DNA of 64,000 bases from Gloeocapsa sp. PCC 7428 (GTDB lineage Bacteria; Cyanobacteriota; Cyanobacteriia; Cyanobacteriales; Chroococcidiopsidaceae): assembly GCF_000317555.1 (NCBI RefSeq), contig NC_019745.1, forward strand, positions 3,224,001 to 3,288,000, written 5' to 3'. Below the pieces are notes generated by a model. The model did no database searches. It was not told where the DNA came from and was given only the letters and a program-made list of their open reading frames with translations. Both the position numbers and the translations under genes were made by a program. This document shows positions 14,800-32,570 of the stretch, in pieces; within the stretch, counting starts at the first letter, position 1; every line of letters begins with the position of its first letter.

Positions 14800-15357
14800 A
14801 TGATAAGTCTCAAACTTCCCTTAACTGATGAAGAGTTTATGCGTATTGCCTCGGAAAATGAGGAGTGGCGCTTGGAAAGCACAAAGGATGGAGAATTAGT
14901 TATTATGCCGCCTACTGGGGGAAATACTGGACGCCGTAACAGTAAAATAACAACTCAGTTGGAGCTTTGGAATAGTGCTAGCAATTTGGGTGAAGCGTTT
15001 GCTTCTTCTACTATGTTCGTCTTACCAAATGGCGCGCGACGTTCTCCTGATGCAGCTTGGATTAGACGCAATCGCTGGAACGCACTTACCCTAGAACAGC
15101 AAGATAAATTTCCCCCACTCTGCCCAGATTTTGTTATTGAACTTTGTTCTCCTTCAGATAACATTGAAGACTTACAACAAAAGATGCAGGAATATCTTGA
15201 AAATGGTGCAGTATTAGGCTGGTTAATTGACCCAAAAACACGAAGAGTAGAAGTTTATCGTATAGGTAAAAATAAAGAGGTTTTAGAAAACTCGACAATG
15301 CTTTTTGGGGAAGATGTGTTACCTGGATTTGTCTTGGATTTGCCAGCGATTTATTGA
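14800..15357 (+). CDS. Uma2 family putative endonuclease (DUF820)
   Basis: A 185-aa PD-(D/E)XK-fold protein of the Uma2 family, very numerous in cyanobacteria and of unknown cellular role. Visible family features: the N-terminal TDEEFMRIASENEEWRLE, the GELVIMPPTGG strand, RRSPDAAWI with the conserved Asp (about residue 78), PDFVIELCSPSDNIEDLQQK with the conserved Glu, and the ending YLENGAVLGWLIDPKTRRVE. An AAGGAGA Shine-Dalgarno sequence precedes the ATG closely. It sits between two frameshifted nuclease-like genes. Unlike them it is intact and normal in length. Nuclease activity is assumed from fold only. Confidence 0.88.
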   Translation: MISLKLPLTDEEFMRIASENEEWRLESTKDGELVIMPPTGGNTGRRNSKITTQLELWNSASNLGEAFASSTMFVLPNGARRSPDAAWIRRNRWNALTLEQQDKFPPLCPDFVIELCSPSDNIEDLQQKMQEYLENGAVLGWLIDPKTRRVEVYRIGKNKEVLENSTMLFGEDVLPGFVLDLPAIY

Positions 15358-16046: not shown

Positions 16047-16527
16047 AGTTTTAATTGTTATTTTACTGGTTACACAGATATTGTATCATTCAACTATATT
16101 TAGTGAAGGCTCACTTTAGAGTGTAGTTACAGAAGTAAATAAGAGAGCGATTATTTTTTAAAATTAGTATTAGTAAATGGAATTTTAATATTTCTTAAAG
16201 AGCAATAATATATTAATGAAGCAGTAATCTTACTCCTCTAAAAATTCACAGAAATAGTAGTATGTATGAATATTAAAGTGCAATCACCCAGTCAAAAAAC
16301 TAATAATCAATAATCTCGAAGTATTATCAAATCATACTGTAAATACTATCTTTTCATCGAATATTTATCCAATTTATCTAAGCTGTAATAAAATAAATTA
16401 TTGTTTTTACGTGAATCTACTTATTTATAAATAAGTAAGGAAGATCACTGATGTTGCGGCTAGAAACGTAATGTTATTACGGAAATATTGAATTTATTAT
16501 ATTTGCTTTAAATTGCCTGTAACTATT
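16047..16527. other. AT-rich upstream region of the first hps module
   Basis: About 480 AT-rich bases between a minus-strand broken gene and the plus-strand hpsA-like gene. Both promoters should lie here. I see no ORF, strong palindrome or RNA gene. Confidence 0.5.
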
Positions 16528-19500
16528 ATGGTTAAGCGCAAATCTACTAAAATGCTTAATCGCGTTTTGCGGAAAGTTGTCAGTTTTATACTTTTGACAA
16601 AACGAAAGCTGTATTGGTTGTTGCGTCGTTCTTTAAGCCGTCGCCGACGACATTTGCAGAGTGGATTTGTGTTACCAACAGTGTTGATGGTGTCAATGGT
16701 AGTTGTGTTGCTGACTACAGCAATGGTTTTTCGATCCTTTGATCGCTCCAAAAATGCTACGTATGTGAGGGTAAATCAAGCTGTACTTAATGCTGCTACT
16801 CCTGCACTTGACCGCGCTAGAGCAAAACTCGATGCTTTATTTGCAGATCCTACACTACCAAGAGCAACGCCTTCTGATATTGCTTTGTACACTGCTCTTA
16901 GTAATAGTAGGTATACCTTTGGAGATGAAGAGCGTTTGAAGCTCGTTACAGATATTAATGGAGTTGCAGGTATTCAAAAATATCCTGATGTTACTCTAGA
17001 AAATGATGATACGCTAAAAACTGCATGGCGATTTCCTGTTGATACAGATAACAACGGCAAATTTGATAGCTATACCCTATACGGTATTTACTTCCGTAGT
17101 CCCACGCGTGGTAGTGATGGGAAATTTAATAGAGCTAGAAACCCGCTAGAGGCAAGAACTCCACCAATGAGAGGTGGTAACATCGGCAATCAATGTGCTA
17201 ATGCCGCAGGTACGAGTGCTAGTTTAGTAGGTGATTCTAGTTGGTATAAATCTGGTGGTAAGCTGAGTAAAAGCTTCTTTGTTTATACCGCCACTGTTCC
17301 AATCACCAATCCTCCTCCTGATGATCTTGATAGTAACAAGTACTATGAACTAGGTAAGCAAAGCTTTTCTGCTTTAGAGTATCAGCAGGATCGAAGTCTT
17401 ATCCCTCTAAGTAATAATGCAGCTGTATTTCAGGATGATCTTGAATTAACTCCTGGCTCGGCTTTCCGAATGAATGGTAGAATTTTTACAAATGCTAACT
17501 TGCTCATTGGTGGACGCAGTAATACTGTAGTTAGACTTTATCAAGTTAGTAGTAAGAATTCATGCTTTTATGAAGAAGAAAATAGTAAAATTACTGTCGG
17601 TGGGAATGTAGGAACTGGAAACGTTGCTGATACTTCAAACCAAAATCAGGTAACGGTTGATCTCTTCAAGGGCTTTGGGAACGATCCTGGTACTGCCACA
17701 ATAAGCAGCAACAATAAATCTACAAACTCCAATGGTGGAGCACAAGTAGCATACAACGATGCTGCTTATAATCGGCGGATTGCTGTAATGAAACGAACAG
17801 CGCTCTTTTTACACGGAAACTATAGCTCTACCACGAATAAGATTGAGCCACCACCAACAATCAGCAGCGTTGATGCAGTATCGCGGTATCCTCAAGCAGT
17901 GAAAGATGGCTTCAAAGCAAAAATTCAAGCACCTGGAGGTAGCAGCTTAAATACACAAGATGTTTTAGCACAAGAACTCGAAATTTATCTAAAGAACCGT
18001 ACTCGGCGTGTTCCTTACGCTGAAGTTGCAGCACCTGATGGTACAGGTGCATTAGGTACATATGATAGTGATGGAGATGGAATCGATACATCCATCTTTG
18101 CATCAGGTACGATTGATCCGCCTGATGCTTGGAGTGCAGTCACAAATACCAGTCCTCTGACTCTTACTACTAATAGATTAGAACAAACTCAACCAGAGCA
18201 GCAAAAAAAAGATGCCAAAGAAACATATGTAGGCGATCGCATCCTTGTAGGCAATAACCTTCCTGCTTTCTGGAAAAAAGATGGCAAGTATGTTACTGGA
18301 CGTAATGAAAAGCAGTTTCTAGGTAACAATATTCATTGGACGAGTCCGAGTAATGAACCACGTTATCGCACTACTCAGGTAGTACCTTTACCTGATATAG
18401 GAATATCTGACAGAAACGGTTTTTGGGAAGATGCTGCTGCTCAAGAACCACAAGGTAGTGCTAATACAGGTGGACTAAGGGTAATCACTGGAGCAGGAAT
18501 TTATCGCAATGACTCATCTTCTTACACAGTTTTATCCACTTCTTCTTTCTTATCCAAGCCTACTACTCTAGAGTCCGGTGGAGCTATTCCTAATGCCCCA
18601 CGTTTAGCAGGTGAGTCTACCGCAACTCCTTACAACCTAGTTTGGTCTGATTTAATGCCAATGACTGGTGGTGCTAATGTTTCTGCGCCAGCAGACTTAC
18701 GCATGAGAGCTACAACCGTTTATCACTATAAAGACAATGCGGGAACTAGTCAGACTCCGATCGCGTGTGTAAGTAGTTACTACGATCCAACAAACGCAAC
18801 CACAGCGAAAAATAGAGTTAATGTTGATGGTGGATATGGCATCGACACGACTGATGGGAAGTCAAATAATGGAGTAGTTTATCCTCCTCCTTACACTACT
18901 AATTCTGCTAGGTTTGCGGCGATCGCAACTTATTTGCCAGAATTAAAGGCTCAAGCAAAACTGATGTTTCCTAACGGACGCATTGTTAACGAACCATTGC
19001 AGCAAGCTTTACAAAAACTCAATACAAGCGGACAACTGGCAGATACGACTAAACCGCTAAGCTTATCTGAGAATTCCGCAATTGATGCAGCAATTTGTGC
19101 GCTCAGAATTTTAACTGATAGCACATTCACGCCTAGTAGTAGCCCTGTACTTCCTCACGGTGCAATTAAGGAAGCAACTTTCCTCGATGCTAGACAAGTT
19201 AGAGCAATTGATAAAACTCCAGCTAACTACGACTTAGAACTAGAGCAACGCCAACCGTTGGAAATTCGAGTAACTGATCTCGATATTCGTCAATTAGCTA
19301 CAACCTCAATTGGTTCCTCAACCAAGCAGGAGTATATGCTACCTAATAGTGGCATTATCTATGCGAGTCGCGATGATGCTTTAGCTGATTTAAGTGACAC
19401 AAGTGTTGAGCGAGAGTTACTTAGCCCTACTGATTTTAGACTTGATGCTACTCGTCGCCCAAATGGTATTCGATTAATCAACGGCAGTAATTTAGCAAGA

Positions 19501-21885
19501 GAAAATGATTATAGAGAAGAAGAAAAGGGCTTAATTCTAGTCACTAATTTACCTGCATACGTTCGAGGTGATTTTAATCTACATCAGGAAGCAGGAGGTA
19601 GTACGCCTACTGAAGAGTTTACAACGACTTTAGCTCCTGATTGGGATAATTTCTATAATCGTGATAAACCTTTTAATAATAACTTTGCTTGTCGTCAAGG
19701 ACAAACTGGTTGTGGTAGTAATGGCGATCAATGGCGTCCTGCAACAATAATTTCTGATGCAATTACTCTACTTTCTAATAGTTTTATAGATGGTTTCCGT
19801 AACCAAGGAGACTATGATCTAAACAATAATGCTGGTATCTCTTCTATTCGATCGCGTCTCCGAAATGGCTTCTGGAATAATAACTTTGTTACCAGTGCTT
19901 TTTGGTGGCGTGCAAATGCCAGTAACACTACTGGCTATCCTTATCCGTACCAGAAACCTCCTGCTAATAGTCATGTAGGTTCTTATCTCACTAATGGAGT
20001 AACACCCATCCAACGGCGAGTAGATTTTCCTGAATATTTGATGGAATACTGTCCAAAAATACCTGTTTCTCTATGCCAACCTTCAGATTGGGTAATTAAC
20101 CCTAGTGGTACAAGAGCAACTAACGCTATTGGTCAAACCTTTGATATTGCTACTCATCAAGCAGGCACAACGGCACAAGCGGCATCTTCTACACTACAGC
20201 GTTATGCTCGCCGTGTTGCTTTTAAACGTAAGCCTAATGGCACGCTTGAACTTAAGGAATGGAACGACAAGGCTACACCGATACCATTGGGGATCGATTC
20301 GACTGGTAAGATTGATGAATTTCCTTATGACACGTACAGCACTAAGTCTCCAAGGATAGCAAAGAATGCTCTTTGGTTTAGAACAACAAATAATACAAGC
20401 GGTGAACCATATAACAATCCTAGCTATAGAACTGATAAGCCACTCGCATACTTAGGCAGTACTCAGTTAGTCTCACCTCCTACTCCTGAGATTCCAGGGA
20501 TTCCTAGCCTAAACTTACCAGAAGGAAATCCAGCCTCTGACTATATGATATGTACAAATCAAAACACTAGGGGTTCTACTAAGAAGTTTTTTATTGATGA
20601 ACCTAGCGACCTTGACTTAAATAGATGTCCAAGTGACACGATGGCTCAAATAACAGCAGTGCGAAACGCCTTGATAAATACAACTACTTTTAATCCAGAT
20701 TCTTCCACGACTGATAACATTGTTAGACCTACACGAACTGGAACAACCGGAGCATTTCCTGCTGCTGCTGGAACAACAACTACCTTTACAAGTAATCCGG
20801 CTGCACCATCTCAAGAAGTTGTTAATGTTATTGACATAGGAGGAGACTTTAATACAAGTACTGCCTGTACAACCATTAGGCTTGTGGGTAATGAAAATTC
20901 AATCTTTGTATTGAGAAAACCCTCAAATAGTCAACTGAGCTTTGGTGGTAGAAGTAGTGACTGTGGCATTCAGGTTCAATTAGAAGGAGTTGAGCCAAAT
21001 AATGTGATTTGGGCAATCAATGCTAACGTTCATTGGAACGCAGTAGATTCTACTAAACCTCATAAAATGGTTGGTACTTTCATTACTGATTCTACTGGTA
21101 GTCCTAAATGGGAAACTGTCAACTTTGAGGATGGTGGTCGGATATTAGGACCTAATGTTGTTCCATCAAGTTCAAACTTCACTAATAGCAAAATTTATGC
21201 GATCGCTTCTAATGGACAACCATATCTAGTTCCCATATTACAAATTCATAGCCCCGAAGGAACCCCTTCCAATAGTAGCGATTCTCTGCCAGATAACAAT
21301 CACCTAGAACGCGAATGGCTATCAAGAGTAGCCGCAGATGTAACAATGAATGCTGTTTTTGTGTCAGGTAACAGTCCAAGTCGCCCAGCAGAAGAATCAG
21401 CAGGTTTGCATAACTTTGTGCGTTTTATCGAAACATGGCAGAACCCTTCTCAAAGAACACTCAATATCAAAGGTAGCTTTATTCAATTTAAGCGAAGTGC
21501 CTATGCTACAGCACCGTTTGCTACTGTATTAGTCGGTAAGTCTACCGCTAATGATGGTTCTCTTAGTATTTTTGGCTATAGCCCTACACGCTACAAAGTT
21601 CAAAACGGTACACCTACCGGAACTTTACCTTACTACAAAGCACCTACTCGGCAATGGGGTTTCGATGTAGCAATCTTATCTCAGTCACCCGATCTTTTTG
21701 CTCAGAAATTTACTCAGCAACCTACAAATCCTCCTGATGAGTTTTTTAGACAAGTAGATCGCAATGATTCCTGGGTTGAAACTTTGTTGTGCGCAGCGAA
21801 AGGTTCAGGGACAAGCTACACCGATGCACTTGATAGAAGCGATCGCCCCACAAGTTGTCCATCTCTTAGTTTGTATAACGACTAA
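16528..21885 (+). CDS. hpsA: Giant HpsA-like protein with pilin-like N-terminus (module 1)
   Basis: Resembles hormogonium polysaccharide biosynthesis protein HpsA, required in filamentous cyanobacteria for the motility polysaccharide. The frame opens at TTG 16513, but the ATG at 16528 is the better start (1785 aa). After a very basic leader (RRSLSRRRRHLQ) comes SGFVLPTVLMVSMVVVLLTT, a pilin-like helix with Gly-Phe at about residues 46-47 but Pro, not Glu, at position +5. ALNAATPALDRARAKLDAL-type helical sequence follows. The rest is Asn/Ser/Thr-rich and extracellular in character. Two acidic loops look calcium-binding: DTDNNGKFD (about 172-180) and DSDGDGID (about 513-520). Near the end is VFVSGNSPSRPAEESAGLHN. 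Three pseudopilin genes follow on the same strand. I read it as a GspK/PilX-like tip protein grown to giant size; that is inference. Confidence 0.82.
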   Translation: MVKRKSTKMLNRVLRKVVSFILLTKRKLYWLLRRSLSRRRRHLQSGFVLPTVLMVSMVVVLLTTAMVFRSFDRSKNATYVRVNQAVLNAATPALDRARAKLDALFADPTLPRATPSDIALYTALSNSRYTFGDEERLKLVTDINGVAGIQKYPDVTLENDDTLKTAWRFPVDTDNNGKFDSYTLYGIYFRSPTRGSDGKFNRARNPLEARTPPMRGGNIGNQCANAAGTSASLVGDSSWYKSGGKLSKSFFVYTATVPITNPPPDDLDSNKYYELGKQSFSALEYQQDRSLIPLSNNAAVFQDDLELTPGSAFRMNGRIFTNANLLIGGRSNTVVRLYQVSSKNSCFYEEENSKITVGGNVGTGNVADTSNQNQVTVDLFKGFGNDPGTATISSNNKSTNSNGGAQVAYNDAAYNRRIAVMKRTALFLHGNYSSTTNKIEPPPTISSVDAVSRYPQAVKDGFKAKIQAPGGSSLNTQDVLAQELEIYLKNRTRRVPYAEVAAPDGTGALGTYDSDGDGIDTSIFASGTIDPPDAWSAVTNTSPLTLTTNRLEQTQPEQQKKDAKETYVGDRILVGNNLPAFWKKDGKYVTGRNEKQFLGNNIHWTSPSNEPRYRTTQVVPLPDIGISDRNGFWEDAAAQEPQGSANTGGLRVITGAGIYRNDSSSYTVLSTSSFLSKPTTLESGGAIPNAPRLAGESTATPYNLVWSDLMPMTGGANVSAPADLRMRATTVYHYKDNAGTSQTPIACVSSYYDPTNATTAKNRVNVDGGYGIDTTDGKSNNGVVYPPPYTTNSARFAAIATYLPELKAQAKLMFPNGRIVNEPLQQALQKLNTSGQLADTTKPLSLSENSAIDAAICALRILTDSTFTPSSSPVLPHGAIKEATFLDARQVRAIDKTPANYDLELEQRQPLEIRVTDLDIRQLATTSIGSSTKQEYMLPNSGIIYASRDDALADLSDTSVERELLSPTDFRLDATRRPNGIRLINGSNLARENDYREEEKGLILVTNLPAYVRGDFNLHQEAGGSTPTEEFTTTLAPDWDNFYNRDKPFNNNFACRQGQTGCGSNGDQWRPATIISDAITLLSNSFIDGFRNQGDYDLNNNAGISSIRSRLRNGFWNNNFVTSAFWWRANASNTTGYPYPYQKPPANSHVGSYLTNGVTPIQRRVDFPEYLMEYCPKIPVSLCQPSDWVINPSGTRATNAIGQTFDIATHQAGTTAQAASSTLQRYARRVAFKRKPNGTLELKEWNDKATPIPLGIDSTGKIDEFPYDTYSTKSPRIAKNALWFRTTNNTSGEPYNNPSYRTDKPLAYLGSTQLVSPPTPEIPGIPSLNLPEGNPASDYMICTNQNTRGSTKKFFIDEPSDLDLNRCPSDTMAQITAVRNALINTTTFNPDSSTTDNIVRPTRTGTTGAFPAAAGTTTTFTSNPAAPSQEVVNVIDIGGDFNTSTACTTIRLVGNENSIFVLRKPSNSQLSFGGRSSDCGIQVQLEGVEPNNVIWAINANVHWNAVDSTKPHKMVGTFITDSTGSPKWETVNFEDGGRILGPNVVPSSSNFTNSKIYAIASNGQPYLVPILQIHSPEGTPSNSSDSLPDNNHLEREWLSRVAADVTMNAVFVSGNSPSRPAEESAGLHNFVRFIETWQNPSQRTLNIKGSFIQFKRSAYATAPFATVLVGKSTANDGSLSIFGYSPTRYKVQNGTPTGTLPYYKAPTRQWGFDVAILSQSPDLFAQKFTQQPTNPPDEFFRQVDRNDSWVETLLCAAKGSGTSYTDALDRSDRPTSCPSLSLYND

Positions 21886-21922
21886 TAAAACGATAGTTAG
21901 AGCTTAAATTAGGTGGACAACA

Positions 21923-22540
21923 ATGATTAAACGCATCAAGCAATATTCGGCTCAAAATAGCCAATCAGGTTTTACTATTGTTGAGTCATTAATGGCTGTG
22001 ATTGTAGTTGGTATCTTAATGAGTGCGATCACTCCTGCAATTGCGCTTTCAGTTGCAACTAGAGTACAAGCAAGGCGAGTAGAATTAGCAACTCAAGCTG
22101 CTAGAACTTACATTGATGGTATCAGAAGTGGAACAATTGCTCCTCCTAATACAACCATTGTACGTAGTACAACCCAATACTTTTTAAATAGTGTAGATCC
22201 GCCAACAGCCTCAGCAGCAGGTTTAACAAGTTTACATTGTGTAAGCCTCGACGATACTCCAGGTTGTAGTAGCGCAAGTTCTAAAGATTTAGTTATTCAA
22301 GCTGTTCGCAGTGTGACTTCAACATCTACTGATGCTGATAAAGGTTATCGCCTGGGGTTAAGAGTATACAGGGCTGATGCTTTTAGTGATAGCAATGCTT
22401 TGCAGAAAGGAACAAAACAAGCAACTTTTACTGGTGGTTTGGGCGATCGCAAAAAACCTCTAGTGGAAATGACAACAGAAATCACTACTACTAGAACGAC
22501 TTTTCAAGATTTCTGTAATCGCCTTGGTGGGTGTCAGTAA
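21923..22540 (+). CDS. hpsB: Pseudopilin HpsB-like (GspI-like), module 1
   Basis: A 205-aa type IV pilin-like protein. The leader MIKRIKQYSAQNSQSG ends in Gly, followed by FTIVESLMAVIVVGILMSAI: a prepilin peptidase site with Glu at +5 and a hydrophobic assembly helix. Next come ARRVELATQAARTYIDGIRS and a small globular part with two Cys (about residues 97 and 105) that could form a disulphide. It ends in FCNRLGGCQ with two more Cys. Size and helix pattern (TIVESLMA) suit a GspI-like minor pseudopilin. It lies 37 bp after hpsA and 21 bp before hpsC. The HpsB name rests on family resemblance and gene order. Confidence 0.85.
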   Translation: MIKRIKQYSAQNSQSGFTIVESLMAVIVVGILMSAITPAIALSVATRVQARRVELATQAARTYIDGIRSGTIAPPNTTIVRSTTQYFLNSVDPPTASAAGLTSLHCVSLDDTPGCSSASSKDLVIQAVRSVTSTSTDADKGYRLGLRVYRADAFSDSNALQKGTKQATFTGGLGDRKKPLVEMTTEITTTRTTFQDFCNRLGGCQ

Positions 22541-22561
22541 TGCAAACAGGGAAGCCATAAC

Positions 22562-23527
22562 ATGAGAAAATCACTGAAATTCTTATTACAGCAATCTCAT
22601 CAAAGCAGAAAAACAAGCGGCTTTACCCTGACTGAATTACTCGTAGGTATGCTAATGGCATCATTAGTTATAACGCCTTTGTTCTCGTTTGCCCTTAATA
22701 TTATGGAGAACGATCGCAAAGAACAAGCAAAAGCAACTACCGAGCAAGAAATTGAGTCAGCCTTAGACTACATAGCACAGGACTTAGAGCAAGCAATCTA
22801 TATATACGATGCAGATGGATTAGATAATAATAGCTCTACCAGTTCTTCTTCTGGTATTAAAAATCAAATTCCACCTGTATCTACTACTCGCGGTTGTGGA
22901 AGTACAACACCAACTTGTGTACCAGTTCTTGTGTTTTGGAAACGCGATCATCGACCAGGTGTTCTTCCTGTATCTGGTAGTTCTGTAAGGGATGATACGT
23001 TTGTATATTCTTTAGTTGCTTACTACTTAATCAAAGATAACAGCAGTATTTGGTCGAACGCTGCCCGTATTGGTAGATTTGAAATTCGAGATGGTGTGAG
23101 AAATCCAACTTCACCTACAAATAGTGATGGTACACCCAACTTTATTACAAACGAATCTACTAGCTCAGGTTTTCAGCTATTTGACTTGAGTGTAACTGGT
23201 AGCAGCCTGAAAGAAAAGATGAATCGTTGGACAAAAGCCAGTAGTAGCTATACGACCAATGTTCTTACTTTAATTGATTATGTAGATCAGAGTAACTTAA
23301 CGCCACAGGCTTGCCCTACAGGTATGCAAAGAGTTCCGTCTACAGCAACTGTACCAGGCGGATTTTATGCTTGTGTTGACTCAGCCACAACTTCTGCACA
23401 AATTTATATTCGAGGAAATGCCCTAGCACGTATAGGAAACAATAGTACATTTAGTACAAATCAATCTGCTTATTTCCCAAGTGCAACAATTCAAGTGAAA
23501 GGGCGCGGTTTTCTTGGAGTTGAATAA
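22562..23527 (+). CDS. hpsC: Pseudopilin HpsC-like (GspJ-like), module 1
   Basis: A 321-aa pseudopilin. The basic leader ends SRKTSG, then FTLTELLVGMLMASLVITPL: cleavage after Gly, Glu at +5, and the hydrophobic helix. The region after the helix, including ESALDYIAQDLEQAIYIYDA, is the alpha-helix and first strand expected in PulJ/GspJ-type minor pseudopilins, and the length (larger than I or H) also fits J. A CGSTTPTCVPVLVFWKRD segment and later Cys residues suggest disulphides in an exported domain. It is followed 12 bp later by the fourth gene. Paralogue in module 2: 30928-31893. Confidence 0.85.
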   Translation: MRKSLKFLLQQSHQSRKTSGFTLTELLVGMLMASLVITPLFSFALNIMENDRKEQAKATTEQEIESALDYIAQDLEQAIYIYDADGLDNNSSTSSSSGIKNQIPPVSTTRGCGSTTPTCVPVLVFWKRDHRPGVLPVSGSSVRDDTFVYSLVAYYLIKDNSSIWSNAARIGRFEIRDGVRNPTSPTNSDGTPNFITNESTSSGFQLFDLSVTGSSLKEKMNRWTKASSSYTTNVLTLIDYVDQSNLTPQACPTGMQRVPSTATVPGGFYACVDSATTSAQIYIRGNALARIGNNSTFSTNQSAYFPSATIQVKGRGFLGVE

Positions 23528-23538
23528 ATTTAATTTTA

Positions 23539-24090
23539 TTGATGATGTTAAAGCGACAGCTAGATAAATTGAATCAAGGATTCACCCTAATAGAAATGCT
23601 AGTGGTGATATTTGTAATTGGAATAATCGCAGCGATCGCTATTCCAAGTTGGCTTAGTTTTCTCGATACTCGTCGTCTCAATATTGCCCAAGATCAACTT
23701 TACCAAGCTATGCGTGACGCTCAAAGAAACGCCAAAAGAGATAAATCAAATTGGCAAGCTAGCTTTAGGCAAGATAATGGAGTCGTTCAATGGGCTGTTC
23801 ATCAAGCAAGCAACACGCCCACTACAACAGATTGGCAGAGCTTAGATCAAAGTATTCGCATAGTTGCAACGCGGCTCAACTCGACAGATCCTAATGACAC
23901 TACATTATTCTTTGACACCACAAATAATCTTTGGAGAATTGTATTTAATCACAAAGCCAACCCGAATGGTCAAATAGGAAAAATTACACTATCTACTCGC
24001 AATAATAATCAAATAAAACGTTGTGTGATAGTCTCTACTCTAATAGGAGGTATGAGAAATGCTAAAGATAGTCAATGTTCATCTAGTTAA
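23539..24090 (+). CDS. GspH/FimT-type pseudopilin, module 1 (hpsD-like position)
   Basis: A 183-aa pseudopilin with two possible ATG codons at the start (23539, 23542). The leader MMLKRQLDKLNQG is followed by FTLIEMLVVIFVIGIIAAIA, a classic prepilin helix with Glu at +5, then IPSWLSFLDTRRLNIAQDQL and QAMRDAQRNAKRDKSN, the arrangement of GspH/FimT proteins (helix leading into a beta domain with WQASF-type strands). It is the last gene of the four-gene module, 12 bp after hpsC. The equivalent Nostoc position is called hpsD, but I did not assign the symbol because the family itself is generic. Confidence 0.87.
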   Translation: MMMLKRQLDKLNQGFTLIEMLVVIFVIGIIAAIAIPSWLSFLDTRRLNIAQDQLYQAMRDAQRNAKRDKSNWQASFRQDNGVVQWAVHQASNTPTTTDWQSLDQSIRIVATRLNSTDPNDTTLFFDTTNNLWRIVFNHKANPNGQIGKITLSTRNNNQIKRCVIVSTLIGGMRNAKDSQCSSS

Positions 24091-24191
24091 GTTATTTCCC
24101 TACATCATTATTGTGATTTTATAAAGATATAGAGTAAAGCTAGTGTAGCGATCGCAAATATGCATTTTGAACTCAAATTCTTAGAAAGGAA

Positions 24192-24338
24192 ATGACGGAA
24201 CATCAACGTTTATCTAGCAAAATTACCCCAATTGTACAAGCTGCGGCTCAAGCAATCGAACGACATCGTAGGTTAGGACAAGCGATCGCCATTTGGCACG
24301 CTAGTAAAGATATTATTAATGCGATCGCAAATTCCTGA
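24192..24338 (+). CDS. Small conserved-type protein (48 aa), possibly with a frameshifted tail
   Basis: An ATG preceded by AGAAAGGA opens a 48-codon frame: MTEHQRLSSK, ITPIVQAAAQ, AIERHRRLGQ, AIAIWHASKD, then IINAIANS-stop. The first 35 residues resemble a family of short cyanobacterial proteins with an ERHRRLGQ-x-I-x-W core, often found beside toxin-like genes (recalled, not checked). The usual ending after the Trp is a short 'DGKVV...IPEL' strand. Here the next frame contains QIPELCAEQQKISALD ending at 24378, so the tail may have been shifted. Function unknown, no partner toxin nearby. It could be a relic. Confidence 0.45.
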   Translation: MTEHQRLSSKITPIVQAAAQAIERHRRLGQAIAIWHASKDIINAIANS

Positions 24339-24378
24339 ACTTTGTGCAGAACAACAGAAAATCAGCGCCCTAGATTGA

Positions 24379-24997
24379 TGCAGAGTGTTGCGTTCACTGC
24401 ATTACATCTATAGTAATTGAAGAGATACTTAGGACATGATAGAAGCTCAGAATCAATAGCTCTTCTAGATTTTAACCCTGACCTCTGACCTCTGCTTCCT
24501 GACCCCTATTATAAGATCTACAGTGTATAAACTTATAATAGTTGTATACAAAAATTACTTACGCAAACGATTACACAGCACTCTAAAGTGAACAGTTGAC
24601 AGTAAAGAGAGTGTGGGAAGACTTTGCCAACTATCAACTATCAACTATTTAGATTAAAACAATGTAATGGCGTTGGGTATCCTCTGTCTATCTCTGTGGT
24701 TCGTTCAAATTCTCAAGCAAAAATAGTTTCCTACATTGCGTATATCTACATATCAACTTTGCAATCAAAATTACATTGTAATAGTGAGGCTGCTTGGGTA
24801 AAAATACTCTGTAAAGATTTTGTATAAATGCGATCGCGCTCACGGTCGTTCCTTGTTAAACGCTACAATAACTGTGATTTTCTCAAGCACCAATTTATAC
24901 TGTTCGATGTAAAGCTCAGCACACCAAATCACCTTTACAACAAACCTGATTTTAAATTCAGCGGTAGAATATTTCAGATTGTGGCAAGGAAGCAGTT
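24379..24997. other. Spacer between the two hps modules
   Basis: About 620 bases with no supportable gene. It holds the heptamer repeat CTGACCT twice in a row at 24478-24491 and low-complexity direct repeats (CAACTAT three times near 24629-24649). The end contains the module 2 ribosome binding site (AAGGAAGC before the ATG at 24998). Short frames here have unlikely protein composition. Confidence 0.5.
24478..24494. repeat. Heptamer tandem repeat (CTGACCT unit)
   Basis: Two perfect CTGACCT units and a partial third. The same unit, in either orientation and often degenerate, recurs in gaps near 34531, 48585, 48783, 55784, 56835 and 56911. It resembles the short tandemly repeated heptamers (STRR) known in cyanobacteria. 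Confidence 0.7.
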
Positions 24998-27900
24998 ATG
25001 TCAACTGGTAAGTACGGCAATGCCATTCTAAGTCAATTAAAGCATGGGCAACCGCAAAGACAATGGCTGCTACGGAGTCTGATTGTGATGCGGCAGAATT
25101 CTTCGACATCAGGATTCGTTTTGCCAACTGTGGCGATGGTATCGTTGGTAATTGTGCTGCTGACAACTGCGATTTTGGTGCGATCCTTCGATCGATCGCG
25201 GACTGCAAGTAATCTTAGAGTAAGTGAAGCTGCATTGAATGCTGCGACTCCTGCACTCGATCGCGCTAGAGCAAAAATTGATGCTTTGTTGCTCGATCAA
25301 ACTTTACCACAAGTTACGCCTACTGATGCCGAACTCGAAAACGCCCTGAACCGCAACAGTTACACTCTCGGTGACGAAACTCGGTTGAAGCTTGCGCAGG
25401 ATAATAGTTCTCGCAACAATAATCCCAATAATACCTTAACAACCGCTTGGAAATTTCCGGTTGATACCGACAGTAACGGTAAATTTGATAGCTATACGCT
25501 ATATGGCATTTATTTTCGTAGTAATACCACAGAAGCAGCGCGAAATCCTTTGCAAGCACGAACGCCACCGATGCAAAGTGAAGCACTCGGAAGAGAATGT
25601 GAAAATGTCTTTAGTAATAGCGATCGCGCGCTAGGTGACTCTGGATGGTATCAATCTGGCGGAAAACTCAGTAAGAGTTTCTTTGTTTACACTGCAACTG
25701 TTCCGATTGCGAATCCCCCAAATGATAATAATTACGAAGCTTATCGCGGAAATCGCAGCTTTTATGCATTAGAATTTCAGCAAGATCGCAGTCGCACACC
25801 GTTGAGAAATCATGCGGCGCTGTTTCAAAACGACTTAGAAATTACTCCTGATTCGACATTTCGGTTGAATGGCAGAATTGCGACAAATGGTAATTTATTA
25901 GTTGGTAGTCAAAATAACGCAACGACACAGTTTTATCAAGTTAGTAGTCCATACTCTTGCTTTTACAACGAAGAAAACGGCAAAATAACCGTTGGGGGAA
26001 ATGTTGGGTTAGGTAACGCAGCAGATACAGGCGATCGCACAGCCGTAAATATCGACTTATTCAATGGATTCGGCAATAATCCGATAAAAGCCGCACTCGA
26101 TCGCAACATTAAATCGACAACAACGACAGGTGGGGCGCAAGTTAGTTATAACGATGCAGCTTACAATCATCGCCTTGCTTTAATGAAGCAAACAGCGTTG
26201 TCTTACCACCCAAATTTTGAACGCCGCAACACGATTGATGAAATTCCCCCAACAGTAGAAAGTGTTGCAGCTGTTAGACAATATCCGCCAGAAGTTAAAG
26301 CAGGATTTGCAGCCGCGACCGCAGATACAAACAATCAGCGTGGGAGTAGTTTAAATGCGTGGGATATTTTAGGCGAACAAATCGAAACGTATTTGAGAAA
26401 TCTAACGCGGCGCGTACCTTATGCGGAAGTGGCAACAAGCGATCGCCGTGCTGCTTTAGAACGATATGATTTTGATGGAAACAGTATAGATACGAGTGTC
26501 TTCACTCCTGATACGATTGAACCACCGCTAGCGTGGCGCGAACCAACACCAGTAAATACCCAATTAACGCTGAATCAATATAACTTACCGCAGACACAAC
26601 CAGAAAAACAGCAGCAAGAAGGAAAAGAAAGTTTCGTAGGCGATCGCATTGCTGTTGGTAATAACCTTCCCATGTTTTGGAAAAAGGCAGGGAACTTCTT
26701 TTTAGGCTTTAATGAAAAGCAATTATTTGATAACGGTGTCAACTGGAATAACCCGAATACGCAACCGCGTTACCGCACAACTCAAACCTTACCGCTTCCC
26801 GATCGAAGAATCATTGAACGGAATGGATTTTGGGAAAATACAGCTGCACAGCAACTTTCTACAACCTTAACAGGTGCAGGTGGTTTACGGATTATCACAG
26901 GTGCAGGAATTTACGATCGCGCCGCTTCTTTTCTACCAGAACCCAAGCTAGAAGAAGGTGTAAGTGAACCACCGCTATTTAGAACGCGTTCGTTTAACGC
27001 TAATCGTAACATTGTTGTGTGGTCTGATGCGCTACCAATGACGGGGAATGCGGAAGAAAGTAAAAAAGGCGATCTTCAGATGCGCGCTACCGCAGTTTAT
27101 CATTACATAGATTCAAGTTACACCGGCACAGACTATATCGAAAGAACGCCGACAGCGTGTATTAGTAGCTACTACGATCCTACAACGGCAATTACTGCCA
27201 GAAATCAAGAAGATTTACCCGATGTCAGTGGTGTTATCGATGGCACGCAGCCTGCAAATGGCAGATCGAATAATGGTGTTGTTTATCCGTCTCCCTATAA
27301 TGATATCGGCGGTCGAGAAGCGGCGGTTAATCAATTTCGCGAACAACTTAATTTTCAAGCAAGCCTCATTTTTCCGAATGGGCGTGTTGTTAATCAACCA
27401 TTACGCGATGCTTTAGCGAAAATCGATGACAATCGAACGCGATCGCTAGCGGATAATTCAGCAATAGATACGGCAATTTGTGCAATTAGAATATTAGATG
27501 ATAGTCTTTCTCCTGTTAGCAATCCGATCGTGCCGCATGGCGCAATCAAAGAAGCTACTTTTCTAGATGCTAGAGAAATCAAAGCTATTGATAAAGATAA
27601 ATCGCCAAGTAACTACGACTTAGAACTAGAAAAGCGCCAACCGCTAGAAATTCGCGTCACCGATATTGATTTGAGTTTACTTGCAGAAACAGAAATTGGT
27701 AACGAAAGAAACCCGCAAGAATATCTATTACCTAATAGTGGGATTATCTATGCAAGTCGCGATGATGCATTAGCAGATAGAAGCGATCAAAGCACCGAAA
27801 CGAAATTACTTAGTCCTAATGATTTTATCCTCGATTCGACGCGTCGTCCAAATGGAATTCGGTTAATTAATGGTAGCGATTTATCGCGAGACGAGAATTA

Positions 27901-30202
27901 CCGAGAAGCAGAAAAAGGCTTAACTTTTGTTACTAATTTACCTCTGTATATCCGAGGTGACTTTAATTTACATCAACAGCCACTCACGCGAACTCCAACT
28001 GAGGAATTTTTAGAACGATTGACATCAAATTGGACTAATTTTTACACTCGCAATACAAATTTTGATAGAAACTTTGCGTGTAGAAAAGGACAGCCAGGCT
28101 GTGGTAATAATGGCGATCAATGGCGTCCTGCAACCGTTGTTTCTGATGCAGTTACAGTATTATCTAATAGTTTTATTGATGGTTTTCGTAGTGGTGGAGA
28201 CTACGATTTGAATAATCACATTGGCAATTCGGTTACTACGCAACGTAAGAGAAATGGATTTGTTGATAATAGCTTTGCTACCAGTGTTAATAGACAAACT
28301 GATACTAGAAGAAATTCTTATTTAAATAATGGTGTCACTCCAGTACAGCGGCGTACTAATTTTCCTGAGTATGTTATGGAAATTTGCCGTAAAATTCCGG
28401 TATCAGAGTGCAAGCCTAACGATTGGGTAGTCGGATATGAAGGTAACAAAGATGTCAAAGCTGCAAGTTTACCTGAAAACGCAAAAGCTGATAGATTAAT
28501 GGCAGGAACAACTGCTAGACCTGCACTCAGTCCAGAAGATCGACGTTATGCGCGGCGAATTGCATTTCAACGTAATGAATTGGGGACGCTAGAATTATCA
28601 GATTTTCAAAATACCTCTACTCCCATACCTCTAGGAATTAATTCAGCCGACGAAGTAGATTTCTTTCCTTATAATACTTATAACAGTAAGCGTCCAAAGT
28701 CAGCAGATAATGCTTTATGGTTTAGAACAACAAGCGATCCTGCACAACCTGATAGTGCGCCTAGTTATCGAAGTGAACAACCTTTAGCGTATACACCAAA
28801 TACTCAACTTATCTCACCTTCAACGCCTGACATTGGTACGATTAGTTTGAATTTACCAGAAAATAAGCCTCTTTCTAGCTATACAATTTGTACAGCGTCA
28901 GGTAAATACTCCAAGCAATATGAATTTGAAAGTGGAGAACAACTACAAACACTTCCAAGTGAATGTGGAATAGATGTCCGAAACCAAATTCAAACTGTTT
29001 ACGAAGATTTAAGAAATCTCAATCCAGATACTGATACAACTGATGACATTGTTCCAGCAGCGCAACAAGGGGATTTTGAAGAAGCAAGAGAAACTGTTAT
29101 AACTGCTAACGATAGTAACCCTATCAATATCGTTGATATAAGGGTTGAGAGAATACCTACTAATAATACTAATCCAACAATAATTAGATTTGTAGGTAAT
29201 GAAAATTCAATATTTGTTATTAGAAACACGACAGGTCAATTGCAGTTTGGTACAGGAGGTAAAGACCATCATGGAGTTAATATTGAATTAGTTGGAGTGA
29301 GTCCTAATAATATTTTTTGGGTAATTAATGGAAATCTCACTACAAATCAAGTTGCTGATGATAAGCGTCATTCTTTAGCAGGAACTTTTTTGAATAATGG
29401 TGTTGGTATTCCTGTATTAAAAAATGTAGAAATTAATGGTCGTTTACTCGGATTTCAAGATTTACCTCAGAAAGGAGAAAACTTTACCGAAGGAAGTAAA
29501 ATTACTGCGATTACCTCAGATGAACAACCTCTATTGATTCCTGTTCTACAAATTCATAGCCCTAACGGTTCTCCTGGGGGAAATAATCTGGATCGCGGTA
29601 GCGCAGATTTGCAAGATGCATGGTTGCAAACTCCAGAAAATGATACGACTGTCAATGCTGTTTTTGTCTCAGGAAATAGCCCCAGTCGTCCAGGAGAAGA
29701 ACCCGCAGGTTTACAAAACTTTGTCCGATTACTCGAAAATTGGCGAAATAGAACATTAAATATTAAAGGTAGTTTTATTCAACTAGATCGCAGTACTTAT
29801 GCGACTGCACCATTTGCACCAATCTTAGGTAGTAAATCTAGTGCAAACGACGGTAGTTTGAGCGTTTTTGACTACGGTTTTACACAGTATAGAACTAATA
29901 ACGGTCAATTTGTTGGTACACTACCCTACTTCGCGACACCAAACCGACAATGGAGTTTCGATGTTGCACTTTTATCGCAGTCACCAGATTTGTTCGCGCA
30001 AAAGTTTACGCAACCGTTGGGAAATGCGACTAACGAATTTGTTCGCGAAGTCAATCGCGACGATCCTTGGATTGAAACGTTGCTATGTGCGGCAGAAGGT
30101 TCTGGCAATAATTATACCTATGCGGTTGATGAAAGCGATCGCCCCCAAAGTTGTCCCGCGTTAAATGCTTACCAAGACACCCAAACTAACGTCACGCCAT
30201 GA
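24998..30202 (+). CDS. hpsA: Giant HpsA-like protein with pilin-like N-terminus (module 2)
   Basis: Second HpsA-like protein, 1734 aa, colinear with the module 1 copy along its whole length. Shared blocks include SGFVLPTVAMVSLVIVLLTT at residues 38-57, AALNAATPALDRARAKIDAL, GKFDSYTLYGIYFRS, GGKLSKSFFVYTATVPI, HGAIKEATFLDAR, LPNSGIIYASRDDALAD, RGDFNLHQ, and VFVSGNSPSRPGEEPAGLQN. The calcium-loop-like DTDSNGKFD is kept (156-164); the second loop is weaker (DFDGNSID). Like its paralogue it has Pro rather than Glu at +5 after the Gly-Phe. Its stop overlaps the next ATG by four bases (ATGA), implying translational coupling to the pseudopilin. Differences are spread through the sequence, pointing to an old duplication rather than an assembly artefact. 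Confidence 0.82.
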   Translation: MSTGKYGNAILSQLKHGQPQRQWLLRSLIVMRQNSSTSGFVLPTVAMVSLVIVLLTTAILVRSFDRSRTASNLRVSEAALNAATPALDRARAKIDALLLDQTLPQVTPTDAELENALNRNSYTLGDETRLKLAQDNSSRNNNPNNTLTTAWKFPVDTDSNGKFDSYTLYGIYFRSNTTEAARNPLQARTPPMQSEALGRECENVFSNSDRALGDSGWYQSGGKLSKSFFVYTATVPIANPPNDNNYEAYRGNRSFYALEFQQDRSRTPLRNHAALFQNDLEITPDSTFRLNGRIATNGNLLVGSQNNATTQFYQVSSPYSCFYNEENGKITVGGNVGLGNAADTGDRTAVNIDLFNGFGNNPIKAALDRNIKSTTTTGGAQVSYNDAAYNHRLALMKQTALSYHPNFERRNTIDEIPPTVESVAAVRQYPPEVKAGFAAATADTNNQRGSSLNAWDILGEQIETYLRNLTRRVPYAEVATSDRRAALERYDFDGNSIDTSVFTPDTIEPPLAWREPTPVNTQLTLNQYNLPQTQPEKQQQEGKESFVGDRIAVGNNLPMFWKKAGNFFLGFNEKQLFDNGVNWNNPNTQPRYRTTQTLPLPDRRIIERNGFWENTAAQQLSTTLTGAGGLRIITGAGIYDRAASFLPEPKLEEGVSEPPLFRTRSFNANRNIVVWSDALPMTGNAEESKKGDLQMRATAVYHYIDSSYTGTDYIERTPTACISSYYDPTTAITARNQEDLPDVSGVIDGTQPANGRSNNGVVYPSPYNDIGGREAAVNQFREQLNFQASLIFPNGRVVNQPLRDALAKIDDNRTRSLADNSAIDTAICAIRILDDSLSPVSNPIVPHGAIKEATFLDAREIKAIDKDKSPSNYDLELEKRQPLEIRVTDIDLSLLAETEIGNERNPQEYLLPNSGIIYASRDDALADRSDQSTETKLLSPNDFILDSTRRPNGIRLINGSDLSRDENYREAEKGLTFVTNLPLYIRGDFNLHQQPLTRTPTEEFLERLTSNWTNFYTRNTNFDRNFACRKGQPGCGNNGDQWRPATVVSDAVTVLSNSFIDGFRSGGDYDLNNHIGNSVTTQRKRNGFVDNSFATSVNRQTDTRRNSYLNNGVTPVQRRTNFPEYVMEICRKIPVSECKPNDWVVGYEGNKDVKAASLPENAKADRLMAGTTARPALSPEDRRYARRIAFQRNELGTLELSDFQNTSTPIPLGINSADEVDFFPYNTYNSKRPKSADNALWFRTTSDPAQPDSAPSYRSEQPLAYTPNTQLISPSTPDIGTISLNLPENKPLSSYTICTASGKYSKQYEFESGEQLQTLPSECGIDVRNQIQTVYEDLRNLNPDTDTTDDIVPAAQQGDFEEARETVITANDSNPINIVDIRVERIPTNNTNPTIIRFVGNENSIFVIRNTTGQLQFGTGGKDHHGVNIELVGVSPNNIFWVINGNLTTNQVADDKRHSLAGTFLNNGVGIPVLKNVEINGRLLGFQDLPQKGENFTEGSKITAITSDEQPLLIPVLQIHSPNGSPGGNNLDRGSADLQDAWLQTPENDTTVNAVFVSGNSPSRPGEEPAGLQNFVRLLENWRNRTLNIKGSFIQLDRSTYATAPFAPILGSKSSANDGSLSVFDYGFTQYRTNNGQFVGTLPYFATPNRQWSFDVALLSQSPDLFAQKFTQPLGNATNEFVREVNRDDPWIETLLCAAEGSGNNYTYAVDESDRPQSCPALNAYQDTQTNVTP

Positions 30203-30891
30203 TTTCTCGTTCACAAGATGGATTCACCATTGTTGATGCTTTAGTCGCGATTGTCGTTGTTGGCATTTTGATGAGTGCGATCGCACCTGTCATGGTACTT
30301 TCTGTCGGCAACCGCGTACAAGCCCGCCGAGTCGAACTCGCAACCCAAGCCGCAAAAACTTATCTTGATGGTATCCGCAACGGCACAATTCCACCACCAA
30401 ATCATACCGTATTAATTAATGAAGTCGATACTAGCGTGACTCGCCAATTCAACGCGCAGCGCGTTACTTTCACAAATGCTGCGGTTCCACCTGCAAGTGG
30501 TTTAACAAATTGTACCCCCACAACACCCGATTACCCGTACTGTCAAAATTCTCCAAATCTAAGTTTGTACTGCATTGACTTTGATGCAGAAGCAGGTTGT
30601 CGCAGTAACAGCGTACGCGATCTTGTTGTTCAAGCATTTCGCAGTGTTACGCCTACGTCTACCGATGCCACAAAAGGTTATTTATTAGGTGTGCGAGTTT
30701 ATCGCGCTGATGCTTTTAGCGATAGTTTACCCCTCGTTAAAAGTGATGTTGATACCAGACGAACGCAAGCCACTTTTACAGGCGGATTAGGCGATCGCAA
30801 AGCCCCATTAATCGAAATTACTACCGAAATGAGTACGACAGAAACCCGATTGCAAGATTTGTGCGATCGCCTCGGTGGTTGTCAACTGTAG
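30199..30891 (+). CDS. hpsB: Pseudopilin HpsB-like (GspI-like), module 2
   Basis: A 230-aa paralogue of the HpsB-like protein at 21923. A very short leader (MISRSQDG) is followed by FTIVDALVAIVVVGILMSAI. Position +5 is Asp instead of the usual Glu, an unusual change in type IV pilin-like proteins because that residue neutralises the N-terminal amine of the neighbouring subunit. Next come ARRVELATQAAKTYLDGIRN and a Cys-containing globular part (CTPTTPDYPYC, then LYCIDFDAEAGC), ending LCDRLGGCQL like module 1. It is about 25 residues longer than its paralogue, mostly in one inserted loop. The start overlaps the hpsA stop. Confidence 0.85.
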   Translation: MISRSQDGFTIVDALVAIVVVGILMSAIAPVMVLSVGNRVQARRVELATQAAKTYLDGIRNGTIPPPNHTVLINEVDTSVTRQFNAQRVTFTNAAVPPASGLTNCTPTTPDYPYCQNSPNLSLYCIDFDAEAGCRSNSVRDLVVQAFRSVTPTSTDATKGYLLGVRVYRADAFSDSLPLVKSDVDTRRTQATFTGGLGDRKAPLIEITTEMSTTETRLQDLCDRLGGCQL

Positions 30892-30927
30892 TAGTAATAC
30901 GAATGGCAACAAGAGGATAGCTATGCC

Positions 30928-31893
30928 ATGATGAACTCACTCAAACTGCTTCGGTACATCCACACAAACCGTTTTGACTCGCAATCGAAAGGTGGCTTTA
31001 CCTTAATCGAACTGCTAGTAGGTATTGTCCTAGCAGGATTAGTCATTACGCCATTAATGAACTTTATGCTCAATATTTTAACAACCCAGCGACAAGAGGA
31101 AGCCAAAGCTAATACCGATCAAGAATTACAATCAACCATTAATTATATTACGCAAGATTTAAGGCAGGCAATTTATATTTATGATGCTGATGGTTTAAAT
31201 AATATTTCAACCCATACTCAACCAGGAATTAAAGATCAAATTCCCCCGTTAGCACCTGTTACAGGATGCGATGCTAGTACAAATTGTACTCCCGTACTTG
31301 TGTTTTGGAAGCGTGATTTTAAGCCAGAAATTTTATCTCGTTGCACAAGCGAATCAATCGATTGTTTAGCTAATACCAACCTCGACGACACTTTTGTATA
31401 CTCGTTAGTAGTGTATTATTTAATTGAAAATAATCCCGTAAATACAACTGAATCTAACACGGCTCGTATTGCCCGATTTCAAATCAATGATGGCGTCAAA
31501 GATCCGCGAAATTTTAATAACTACATTGAACCACCGGATAACGGGTTTCAATTTTTTAATTTAAGAGTTCCAGGATTAACAATCAAAGATAAGATGAATC
31601 GCTGGCAAAAAGCTAACGAAAACTATACTAACAGCGTTGCTACGCTTGTTGATTTCATTGATATAAGTGCTAGCACAAAACAGCAAAATTGTCCAGCTAA
31701 TATGCAACAAGTTCCCGCTATCGCCAGTGGGTTTTATGCTTGCGTAGACTCAATAAATACAACAGCACAAGTTCATTTAAGAGGCAATGCGATCGCACGA
31801 ATTAGAAATGATGCAACGTGCGATATCGCTTCTGTATACTGCCCTAGTGTTAGCGTTCAAGTTCAAGGCAGCGGATTACTCAGCCGTAACTAA
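30928..31893 (+). CDS. hpsC: Pseudopilin HpsC-like (GspJ-like), module 2
   Basis: A 321-aa paralogue of the module 1 HpsC-like protein, with the same length. The leader ends QSKGG, then FTLIELLVGIVLAGLVITPL with Glu at +5. The following QSTINYITQDLRQAIYIYDA closely matches module 1 and suits a GspJ-type minor pseudopilin. A Cys pair in GCDASTNCTPVLVFWKRD and a second in RCTSESIDC may form disulphides; the second is absent from module 1. It ends with SVSVQVQGSGLLSRN. The gap to the next gene (81 bp) holds a heptamer repeat. Confidence 0.85.
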   Translation: MMNSLKLLRYIHTNRFDSQSKGGFTLIELLVGIVLAGLVITPLMNFMLNILTTQRQEEAKANTDQELQSTINYITQDLRQAIYIYDADGLNNISTHTQPGIKDQIPPLAPVTGCDASTNCTPVLVFWKRDFKPEILSRCTSESIDCLANTNLDDTFVYSLVVYYLIENNPVNTTESNTARIARFQINDGVKDPRNFNNYIEPPDNGFQFFNLRVPGLTIKDKMNRWQKANENYTNSVATLVDFIDISASTKQQNCPANMQQVPAIASGFYACVDSINTTAQVHLRGNAIARIRNDATCDIASVYCPSVSVQVQGSGLLSRN

Positions 31894-31936
31894 TCATACG
31901 TAAAGCTTACTATTTGTTGGTAACTAGATATGACCC

Positions 31937-31957
31937 ATTACCAATTACCTATTACCT
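31937..31957. repeat. Heptamer tandem repeat (ATTACCY unit)
   Basis: Three 7-bp units, ATTACCA, ATTACCT, ATTACCT, in the gap between module 2 hpsC and the GspH-like gene. The same unit occurs four times in a row at 53199-53226. Confidence 0.8.
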
Positions 31958-31973
31958 TTTTTACAATTAACAT

Positions 31974-32570
31974 ATGTCAAATGAACAATTAGATTCTGGT
32001 TTTACATTAATCGAAGTTATTGTTGTTACCTTAGTCATCGGAATTTTGTCGGCGATCGCCGTACCTTCTTGGTTAGGTTTTGTGAATCGTCAACGGATAA
32101 ATACAGTAAACGAATCGATTCTCCGTGCTTTACAAACCGCGCAGCAAGAAGCTAGAAAGCAAAAAATTAGCTACAGTGTCAGTTTTAGAACTAACAATCA
32201 AATTCCTCAAATTGCCATCCATCCTAGAGGAACAACACCCAGTAATACAGATTGGCAACCATTAGGTGAAGATTCAGGAATTAACCCACAACAAATTTTG
32301 TTAGGAACTAATCTTAATGGTGACAGCGTTGCCACTAATGCTATGACTTATGCAGCTAATACAACACAAACAATTAGCTTTGATTTTAGAGGCAATTTAC
32401 CACGCGATGCTAGTTTTGGCACTCCGGACAAAGGTTTAATAGTAACAGTTGCTCAACCTCGTAACAATTCCACAACTCCTATTGAAGGAACAAGGCGATG
32501 TGTTGCGGTAAGAACCCTTCTTGGTGCCATGCAAACAGATAGTGAAGATGAATGCAATCCTAGTGGCTAA
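31974..32570 (+). CDS. GspH/FimT-type pseudopilin, module 2 (hpsD-like position)
   Basis: A 198-aa pseudopilin, paralogous to 23539-24090. The leader MSNEQLDSG is followed by FTLIEVIVVTLVIGILSAIA (Glu at +5), then VPSWLGFVNRQRINTVNESI and ALQTAQQEARKQKISYSVSF, the GspH/FimT arrangement. The C-terminus RRCVAVRTLLGAM matches the module 1 end (RCVIVSTLIGGM), including the Cys. It closes the second four-gene module. No terminator-like hairpin is obvious in the next 130 bases. Confidence 0.87.
   Translation: MSNEQLDSGFTLIEVIVVTLVIGILSAIAVPSWLGFVNRQRINTVNESILRALQTAQQEARKQKISYSVSFRTNNQIPQIAIHPRGTTPSNTDWQPLGEDSGINPQQILLGTNLNGDSVATNAMTYAANTTQTISFDFRGNLPRDASFGTPDKGLIVTVAQPRNNSTTPIEGTRRCVAVRTLLGAMQTDSEDECNPSG

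Follow-up and report, generated by a model that had tools for sequence, protein, structure and literature searches.

The stretch of DNA analysed here, a 64-kb window of Gloeocapsa sp. PCC 7428 (genome G000; contig NC_019745.1, positions 3,224,001 to 3,288,000; coordinates below are those of the window), carries two consecutive sets of hps genes, which encode minor pilins and the very large protein HpsA. The eight open reading frames (ORFs) that form the two sets all lie on the + strand and are real genes. Module A comprises hpsA (16528(16513)-21885; 1785 amino acids (aa)), the minor pilin genes hpsB (21923-22540) and hpsC (22562-23527), and a fourth gene for a GspH/FimU-like minor pilin (23539-24090). 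Module B comprises hpsA (24998-30202; 1734 aa), hpsB (30199-30891), hpsC (30928-31893) and another gene for a GspH/FimU-like minor pilin (31974-32570). Each hpsA-B-C trio stands in one operon and exceeds the curated NCBIfam equivalog cut-offs: HpsA reaches 2119 (A) and 1739 (B) bits against 400, HpsB (EPS_HpsB) 249 and 296 against 150, and HpsC (EPS_HpsC) 398 and 323 against 200. The original prediction was right in naming HpsA and pseudopilins. An ATGA overlap couples hpsA to hpsB in module B only (24998..30202 / 30199..30891). The identity between modules is 54% for HpsA, 57% for HpsB, 50% for HpsC and 34% for the fourth genes, and a search of the genome gave no HpsA genes other than these two. 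An assembly artefact can be rejected, since the copies are only ~55% identical, the contig is a single one of 5.4 Mb, and two-module loci recur in relatives.

It had been proposed that a complete four-gene module was duplicated. Counterparts of hpsA-B-C are indeed present in both modules, but the fourth genes do not correspond to each other. In a tree of 146 rows (hpsD-like ORFs above 100 bits and of 150-299 aa, taken from the window, relatives and named loci), these fall on two sides of 72 and 74 rows, split with a support of 100/99, the bootstrap being not fully settled (0.989 of 0.99). The HpsD side (72 rows) includes the window gene at 31974 and the gene that immediately follows hpsC in Nostoc-type loci, while the HpsH side (74 rows) holds the gene after the glycosyltransferases in Nostoc-type loci and the window gene at 23539. 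The name HpsH follows the gene order and a table in PMC10581220, where hpsH stands after hpsC in a species without hpsD. Judged by homology and tree placement, the locus does not repeat a single four-gene set: hpsA-B-C-H comes first and hpsA-B-C-D second, and HpsD and HpsH are both present in the genome, one each, in different modules. The HpsD profile gives 319.5 bits for the 31974 gene, with which it was built, versus 128.7 for the module A gene. Across 19 genomes of the family, nine have one strong match to this profile (271-320 bits) and G011 has fragments in a broken module. HpsH-kind module genes score 76-134 bits and are seen in the module-bearing genomes except G005 and G011; besides these, two partial pilin matches score 77 and 84 bits.

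HpsD and HpsH are taken as alternative fourth subunits. A set with HpsA of the module B type (B-type) occurs with D alone in G005 (84% complete), sets of the module A type (A-type) occur with H alone in G012 and G015, and a single ABC set has both D and H in G008, G016 and many Nostoc-type loci. In the single modules of G016 (L078, 13844-15089) and G008 (L070, 6803-8337), HpsD and HpsH are adjacent, with no glycosyltransferase genes between them. Since both sets of the tandem in genus g2 carry H, the division of D and H between sets is no rule. In an apparently independent tandem of G140, from another family, D again accompanies one ABC set and H the second (L081, 496-15342); its two HpsA are sisters (100), and the HpsB and HpsC trees put one copy nearer a Fischerella sequence (79, 85).

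The position of module A differs in content between close relatives. Two HpsA genes over the cut-off occur in 8 of the 19 family genomes, in seven of these on one contig. Two-module loci therefore recur in the survey that the original prediction had called for; an order-wide survey was made among the matches listed only, with at most two candidates scored per genome, and no frequency was derived from it. Module B is orthologous in G000, G001, G002, G004, G010 and G014 (HpsA 85-94% identical mutually). Its right landmark is a gene that we take to be of glgB type (34624..36915, - strand), which is kept in the flank of relatives: it adjoins module B in G000-G002 and stands beside the downstream or only module also in G003, G006, G008, G009 and G013, but not in G004, G010 and G014. 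The left landmark of the slot upstream of module B is presumably, from its sequence, a gene of htpG type (11366..13339, + strand), which is beside the slot in G001, G002, G007, G010, G015 and G016; in G014 none was found within the 10 kb fetched to the left. The slot holds an A-type set in G000, G004 and G014 and a third, C-type set in G001, G002 and G010. A-type and C-type HpsA form separate deep clades in the HpsA tree and, over the 300 residues that follow GFVLPT, are 29-34% identical (7 A x 5 C, giving 35 pairs). They differ despite the closeness of the genomes, for which the median synonymous divergence (dS) of reference genes is 0.08 between G000 and G001 (19 genes) and 0.09 between G004 and G010 (8 genes).

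The same holds for two further genera. In g2, the slot is occupied by an A-type set in G009 and a C-type set in G003 and has no module in G013, with the downstream module conserved; the median dS is 0.18 for G009-G003 (13 genes), 0.27 for G009-G013 (11) and 0.20 for G003-G013 (10), or 0.21, 0.29 and 0.18 when the module genes and an overlapping antisense ORF are excluded. In g6, a single slot adjoining htpG is occupied by a C-type set in G007 and by an A-type set in G015 and in G016, and the DNA on both sides is 79-92% identical. The G001 slot lies in the same htpG-linked place, but on a contig other than that of module B, and is a further recombinant, with C-type hpsABC and an hpsH of the window's clade. 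These comparisons give good support to the view that the position of module A is a slot whose content is replaced between close species.

Some observations on individual loci touch the slot. Beside module B of G001 (L062/L063) are phospholipase-D-like, orange-carotenoid-N-domain and histidine kinase genes, which suggests slot rearrangement. A Uma2-family gene (14800..15357, + strand; PF05685, 1.6e-46) lies at the left side of the slot, upstream of module A, and ORFs between the modules of G002 (L064, 11944-12411) and G010 (L072, 8142-8708) have a weak similarity to it (24%). These Uma2-like genes may mark or provoke rearrangement. In G011, whose genome is 73% complete, the hps module is broken by many stops (L073, 3675-11606). 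In G012, four ORFs of 191, 166, 377 and 771 aa lie directly upstream of the A-type module (L074, 3513-7959); three have prepilin-motif matches, and they represent a different pilin operon with a different gene order.

The boundary of the exchanged segment lies within module A hpsA. The promoter region and the HpsA leader, i.e., the 45 codons before the G of GFVLPT (16395..16662, + strand), match the DNA of C-type relatives: the window is 91-92% identical to G002 and G010 over 16395/16371-16679, and 76% identical to G001. The GF codon is at 16663, the C-type homology ends at 16679, and the A-type homology begins at 16651/16654, which places the junction at the prepilin motif codons (16651..16682, + strand). 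From there, the DNA matches A-type relatives through the mature hpsA, hpsB, hpsC and hpsH and ~250-300 bp downstream (16651..24389, + strand), with 87-88% identity to G004 and G014 over 16654-24389 and 16651-24336. A 48-residue ORF (24192-24338, + strand) lies just 3' of hpsH, at the end of this common segment. The proteins repeat the pattern. The window leader is 78%, 82% and 62% identical to those of G002, G010 and G001 (C) and 29% and 36% to those of G004 and G014 (A); for 390 shuffled leaders, the 95th percentile is 30% and the maximum 36%. Over the 300 residues that follow the motif, the window protein is 32, 30 and 30% identical to G002, G010 and G001 and 93 and 88% to G004 and G014. Judged by this homology, module A hpsA of the window is a recombinant, with a C-like promoter and leader joined to an A-type mature part.

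A and C occupants show a similar contrast in g2 (G009 versus G003: leader 56%, mature part 31%) and g6 (G007 versus G015/G016: leader 70/65%, mature part 31/30%). The leader identity is high and that of the mature part low in six pairs, in which the leader thus follows the genomic position and the mature part follows the cassette. Genus g3 is an exception, as there the leaders of G004 and G014 (A) are only 33 and 38% identical to that of G010 (C) and the boundary lies upstream of hpsA. Relative to the GF codon, the left end points by genus are ~+16, -106 and -44/-26 bp, which suggests separate events; these end points are limits of detectable similarity that later change may blur. On the right side, similarity resumes ~70-100 bp after hpsH in G004-G010, G000-G010 and G007-G015/G016, and farther on in G000-G002 and G009-G003. 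Gene conversion between the two modules was considered as well and rejected: module A HpsA of the window is 56.4% identical to its own module B HpsA and 56.5/57.4% to those of G014/G004, i.e., no closer.

Synonymous divergence bears on the age of the exchange. All dS values and ratios of nonsynonymous to synonymous divergence (dN/dS) are by NG86, with baselines from genes in the fetched stretches only, 7-24 per pair in g1 and g3 and 10-13 per pair in g2, those of g3 lying mostly elsewhere in the genome and not beside the slot. Between the A cassettes of the window and G004/G014, dS is 0.41-0.42 for hpsA and 0.26-0.27 for hpsH, against reference medians of 0.82-0.83 (8 genes each). Because the cassette dS is about half that of the reference genes, we conclude that the cassette crossed between genera after their split. 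The C alleles of G001 and G002 are more divergent in hpsA (dS 0.70) than reference genes are (0.43). Around the slot, dS between G000 and G001 is mostly 0.03-0.16, with htpG at 0.29 and the Uma2 gene at 0.33. In module B it is 0.25 for hpsA and 0.30 for hpsC, and low again in hpsB (0.13) and hpsD (0.04); a farther gene, w44019, has 0.22. Module B is also affected in G004-G010, with an hpsA dS of 0.36 against a reference of 0.09. The raised dS around the slot resembles a recombination hot spot, but there is no smooth gradient.

The divergence between modules A and B is old, as had been supposed, with dS of 1.3-2.4 for hpsA-C, near saturation. Both copies are maintained under purifying selection: dN/dS for hpsA-C is 0.11-0.23 (A) and 0.07-0.20 (B), that of hpsH is 0.19-0.32, and that of the C-type set including its hpsH is 0.12-0.40. 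The top value in module B, 0.40 for hpsD of G000-G001, rests on a dS of 0.04. Relaxed selection, with a dN/dS near 1 in one copy, is therefore rejected.

All six small pilins match the PF07963 prepilin motif with E <=0.0021, P0003 and P0006 lying below the gathering score. The motif of both HpsA copies is GFVLPTV, with no Glu at position 5, and one copy only has a weak match in register to the GspK model (E 0.024). We suggest that HpsA may be a giant tip pilin of GspK/PilX type. It has been described as a hypothetical membrane protein in PMC6495340. For folding, 62 of 69 selected rows served as input; the model of the HpsA N-terminus had no confident Foldseek or fold match, and profile searches of the PDB with HpsA alignments returned no pilin and no ice-binding protein. 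A DUF3494 ice-binding protein (IBP) beta-solenoid fold is present in HpsA, and in module B the domain spans residues 1277-1507 (28826..29518, + strand). A link to the Verru_Chthon cassette was set aside: HpsC and the D/H pilins match its C and D models far below cut-off, and no Verru_Chthon model is listed for HpsA. As for the pilus machine, the genome has a PilB-like gene (C1:387250-389052; 547.6 bits, covering positions 4-562 of the 564 in the model), which is directly followed by a shorter match of PilT type. Other ATPases of the PilB superfamily are also present, all below the curated cut-off of 675.65 bits, which no gene reached in any of the 19 genomes and 14 controls.

The suggestion that the two sets secrete two polysaccharides is unsupported. 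No HpsE-type glycosyltransferase exceeds the 300-bit cut-off in any of the 19 family genomes, the best reaching 197 bits, whereas the positive control, Nostoc L134, has three glycosyltransferase-type genes between HpsD and HpsH, two of which reach 524 and 464 bits as HpsE. The data thus do not point to a role in secreting hormogonium polysaccharide, though weaker glycosyltransferase matches are abundant. No exact SigJ J-box (GGGNATACT) occurs near the modules, and matches with one mismatch are at chance level (12 versus 10.35 expected), including a match at 24615, upstream of module B. Scans for sigma-70 promoters and terminators were likewise at chance level, and Rfam and tRNA scans of the window found nothing. 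Beyond module B, a gene at 33192-34379 (+ strand) has an odd combination of Nfu N-terminal, 'virulence factor' (PF13769) and HEAT-repeat domains.

We consider it likely that the two sets are minor-pilin tip (priming) complexes for the type IV pilus of the cell, sharing one pilus machine, and that one of them is encoded in an exchangeable slot. The exchange is well supported, while the tip function is what we infer; the 'parallel tip sets' of the original prediction fit the data. Each complex would combine HpsB and HpsC with one GspH-like pilin, HpsH for module A or HpsD for module B, and with the giant HpsA, which is probably GspK/PilX-like; a role in adhesion or recognition is putative. Module B is the more stable set. 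The content of the module A slot is exchanged between species through homologous recombination, with natural transformation as the most likely route, and the unit comprises mature HpsA, HpsB and HpsC, usually together with HpsH. In two other genera as in the window, promoter and HpsA leader stay with the locus, so that expression and membrane targeting would remain local while the exposed tip changes. In G000, a C-type occupant was apparently displaced by an A-type cassette that is related to the one in g3, a Gloeocapsopsis-like genus. A bolder proposal, which we hold tentatively, is that this is a tip-switch locus with a fixed promoter and signal peptide, at which whole tip complexes are exchanged between species. 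Such exchange could provide new pilus binding specificities or escape from tip-using phages far above the genome rate, and could possibly be fed by DNA uptake through the same pilus.

Three other explanations need to be weighed. The modules could encode DNA-receptor tips of a competence pilus, similar to ComZ of Thermus thermophilus, rather than adhesion or polysaccharide tips. We think this unlikely. The solenoid of HpsA is optional in the family: A-type and B-type HpsA carry it, but C-type and most non-family HpsA lack the segment. In addition, Nostoc hpsA-D are tied to hormogonium motility and polysaccharide in PMC6495340. ComZ itself differs from HpsA in size, its chain having 518 residues against the 1734-1785 aa of HpsA, more than three times as many; DNA binding by HpsA is putative.

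An old tandem duplication, after which the two copies would have passed down vertically and specialised, perhaps for two polysaccharides, is somewhat more doubtful. It would agree with the purifying selection on both modules, with the tandem pair of G140 and its sister HpsA copies, and with the placement of A and B HpsA in one 14-row, family-only clade (SH-aLRT 99). Of the 54 rows in this tree, 26 come from the family plus G140 and 28 are other selected rows, with HpsA rows below 1200 aa left out; the HpsB and HpsC trees have 54 and 52 rows, and the trees do not include L082-L087, L073 and L144, which duplicate other loci or are broken. The deep A/B split may indeed come from a duplication inside the family. 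However, the A/B clade finds no confirmation in the trees of HpsB and HpsC, the fourth genes do not form a homologous pair, the slot content differs between species at a reference dS of ~0.1, HpsE over the cut-off is absent from the 19 genomes, and the chimeric hpsA contradicts this explanation for module A of G000. Least probable of the three is an ancestral three-module array (C, A, B) with differential loss, in which A and C would be remnants and not slot alleles: both types are widespread in the family, tandem arrays can form (G140) and A and C leaders differ inside g3, but C, A and B are found together in none of the 19 genomes (some incomplete), the window A leader resembles the leaders of C occupants in relatives, the A-cassette dS is about half that of reference genes, and both flanks of the swapped segment align between G007 and G015/G016.

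Tip complexes exchanged at a slot have parallels in other systems. In capsule loci and in the pilin and minor-pilin allele sets of Pseudomonas, conserved flanks enclose allelic cassettes that are not homologous, and divergence is raised near the site. The locus described here is similar in these respects, but its crossover is at the boundary between prepilin leader and mature protein, and it concerns a cyanobacterial minor-pilin set. It is also similar to the hps locus of Nostoc punctiforme (hpsA-D, hpsE-G, hpsH) in its HpsA, HpsB and HpsC equivalogs and its HpsD and HpsH clades. Unlike that locus, it has two ABC sets with D and H divided between them and lacks an exact J-box near the modules. 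Glycosyltransferase genes are missing both between the modules and next to them, and HpsE does not exceed the cut-off in the family. Several alternative tip sets are encoded in one genome in Myxococcus xanthus, according to PMC7541494 and PMC12075869, and PilY1/minor-pilin clusters 1-3 and the Kil Tip1-4 complexes thus resemble the two sets of the window. Duplication and suspected transfer of Myxococcus PilY1 proteins are reported in PMC13190605. In contrast to M. xanthus, a Pfam scan of the module proteins gave no PilY1 domain, the sets are arranged in tandem, and close species replace the content of one slot but retain its leader.

Multiple tip sets per genome are already known from Myxococcus, whereas the exchange of such sets in cyanobacteria is apparently unreported. 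Among the titles and abstract openings of open-licence PMC papers, we found no report of tandem hps modules, of an exchange of cyanobacterial minor-pilin sets or of a D/H split, which is no proof of absence. Our findings suggest that HpsA may be a tip pilin of giant size in which an ice-binding-like solenoid is optional, and they set HpsD apart from HpsH as alternative fourth subunits. Close relatives swap whole minor-pilin sets at a defined boundary, and species pairs that differ in the cassette thus represent a natural experiment.
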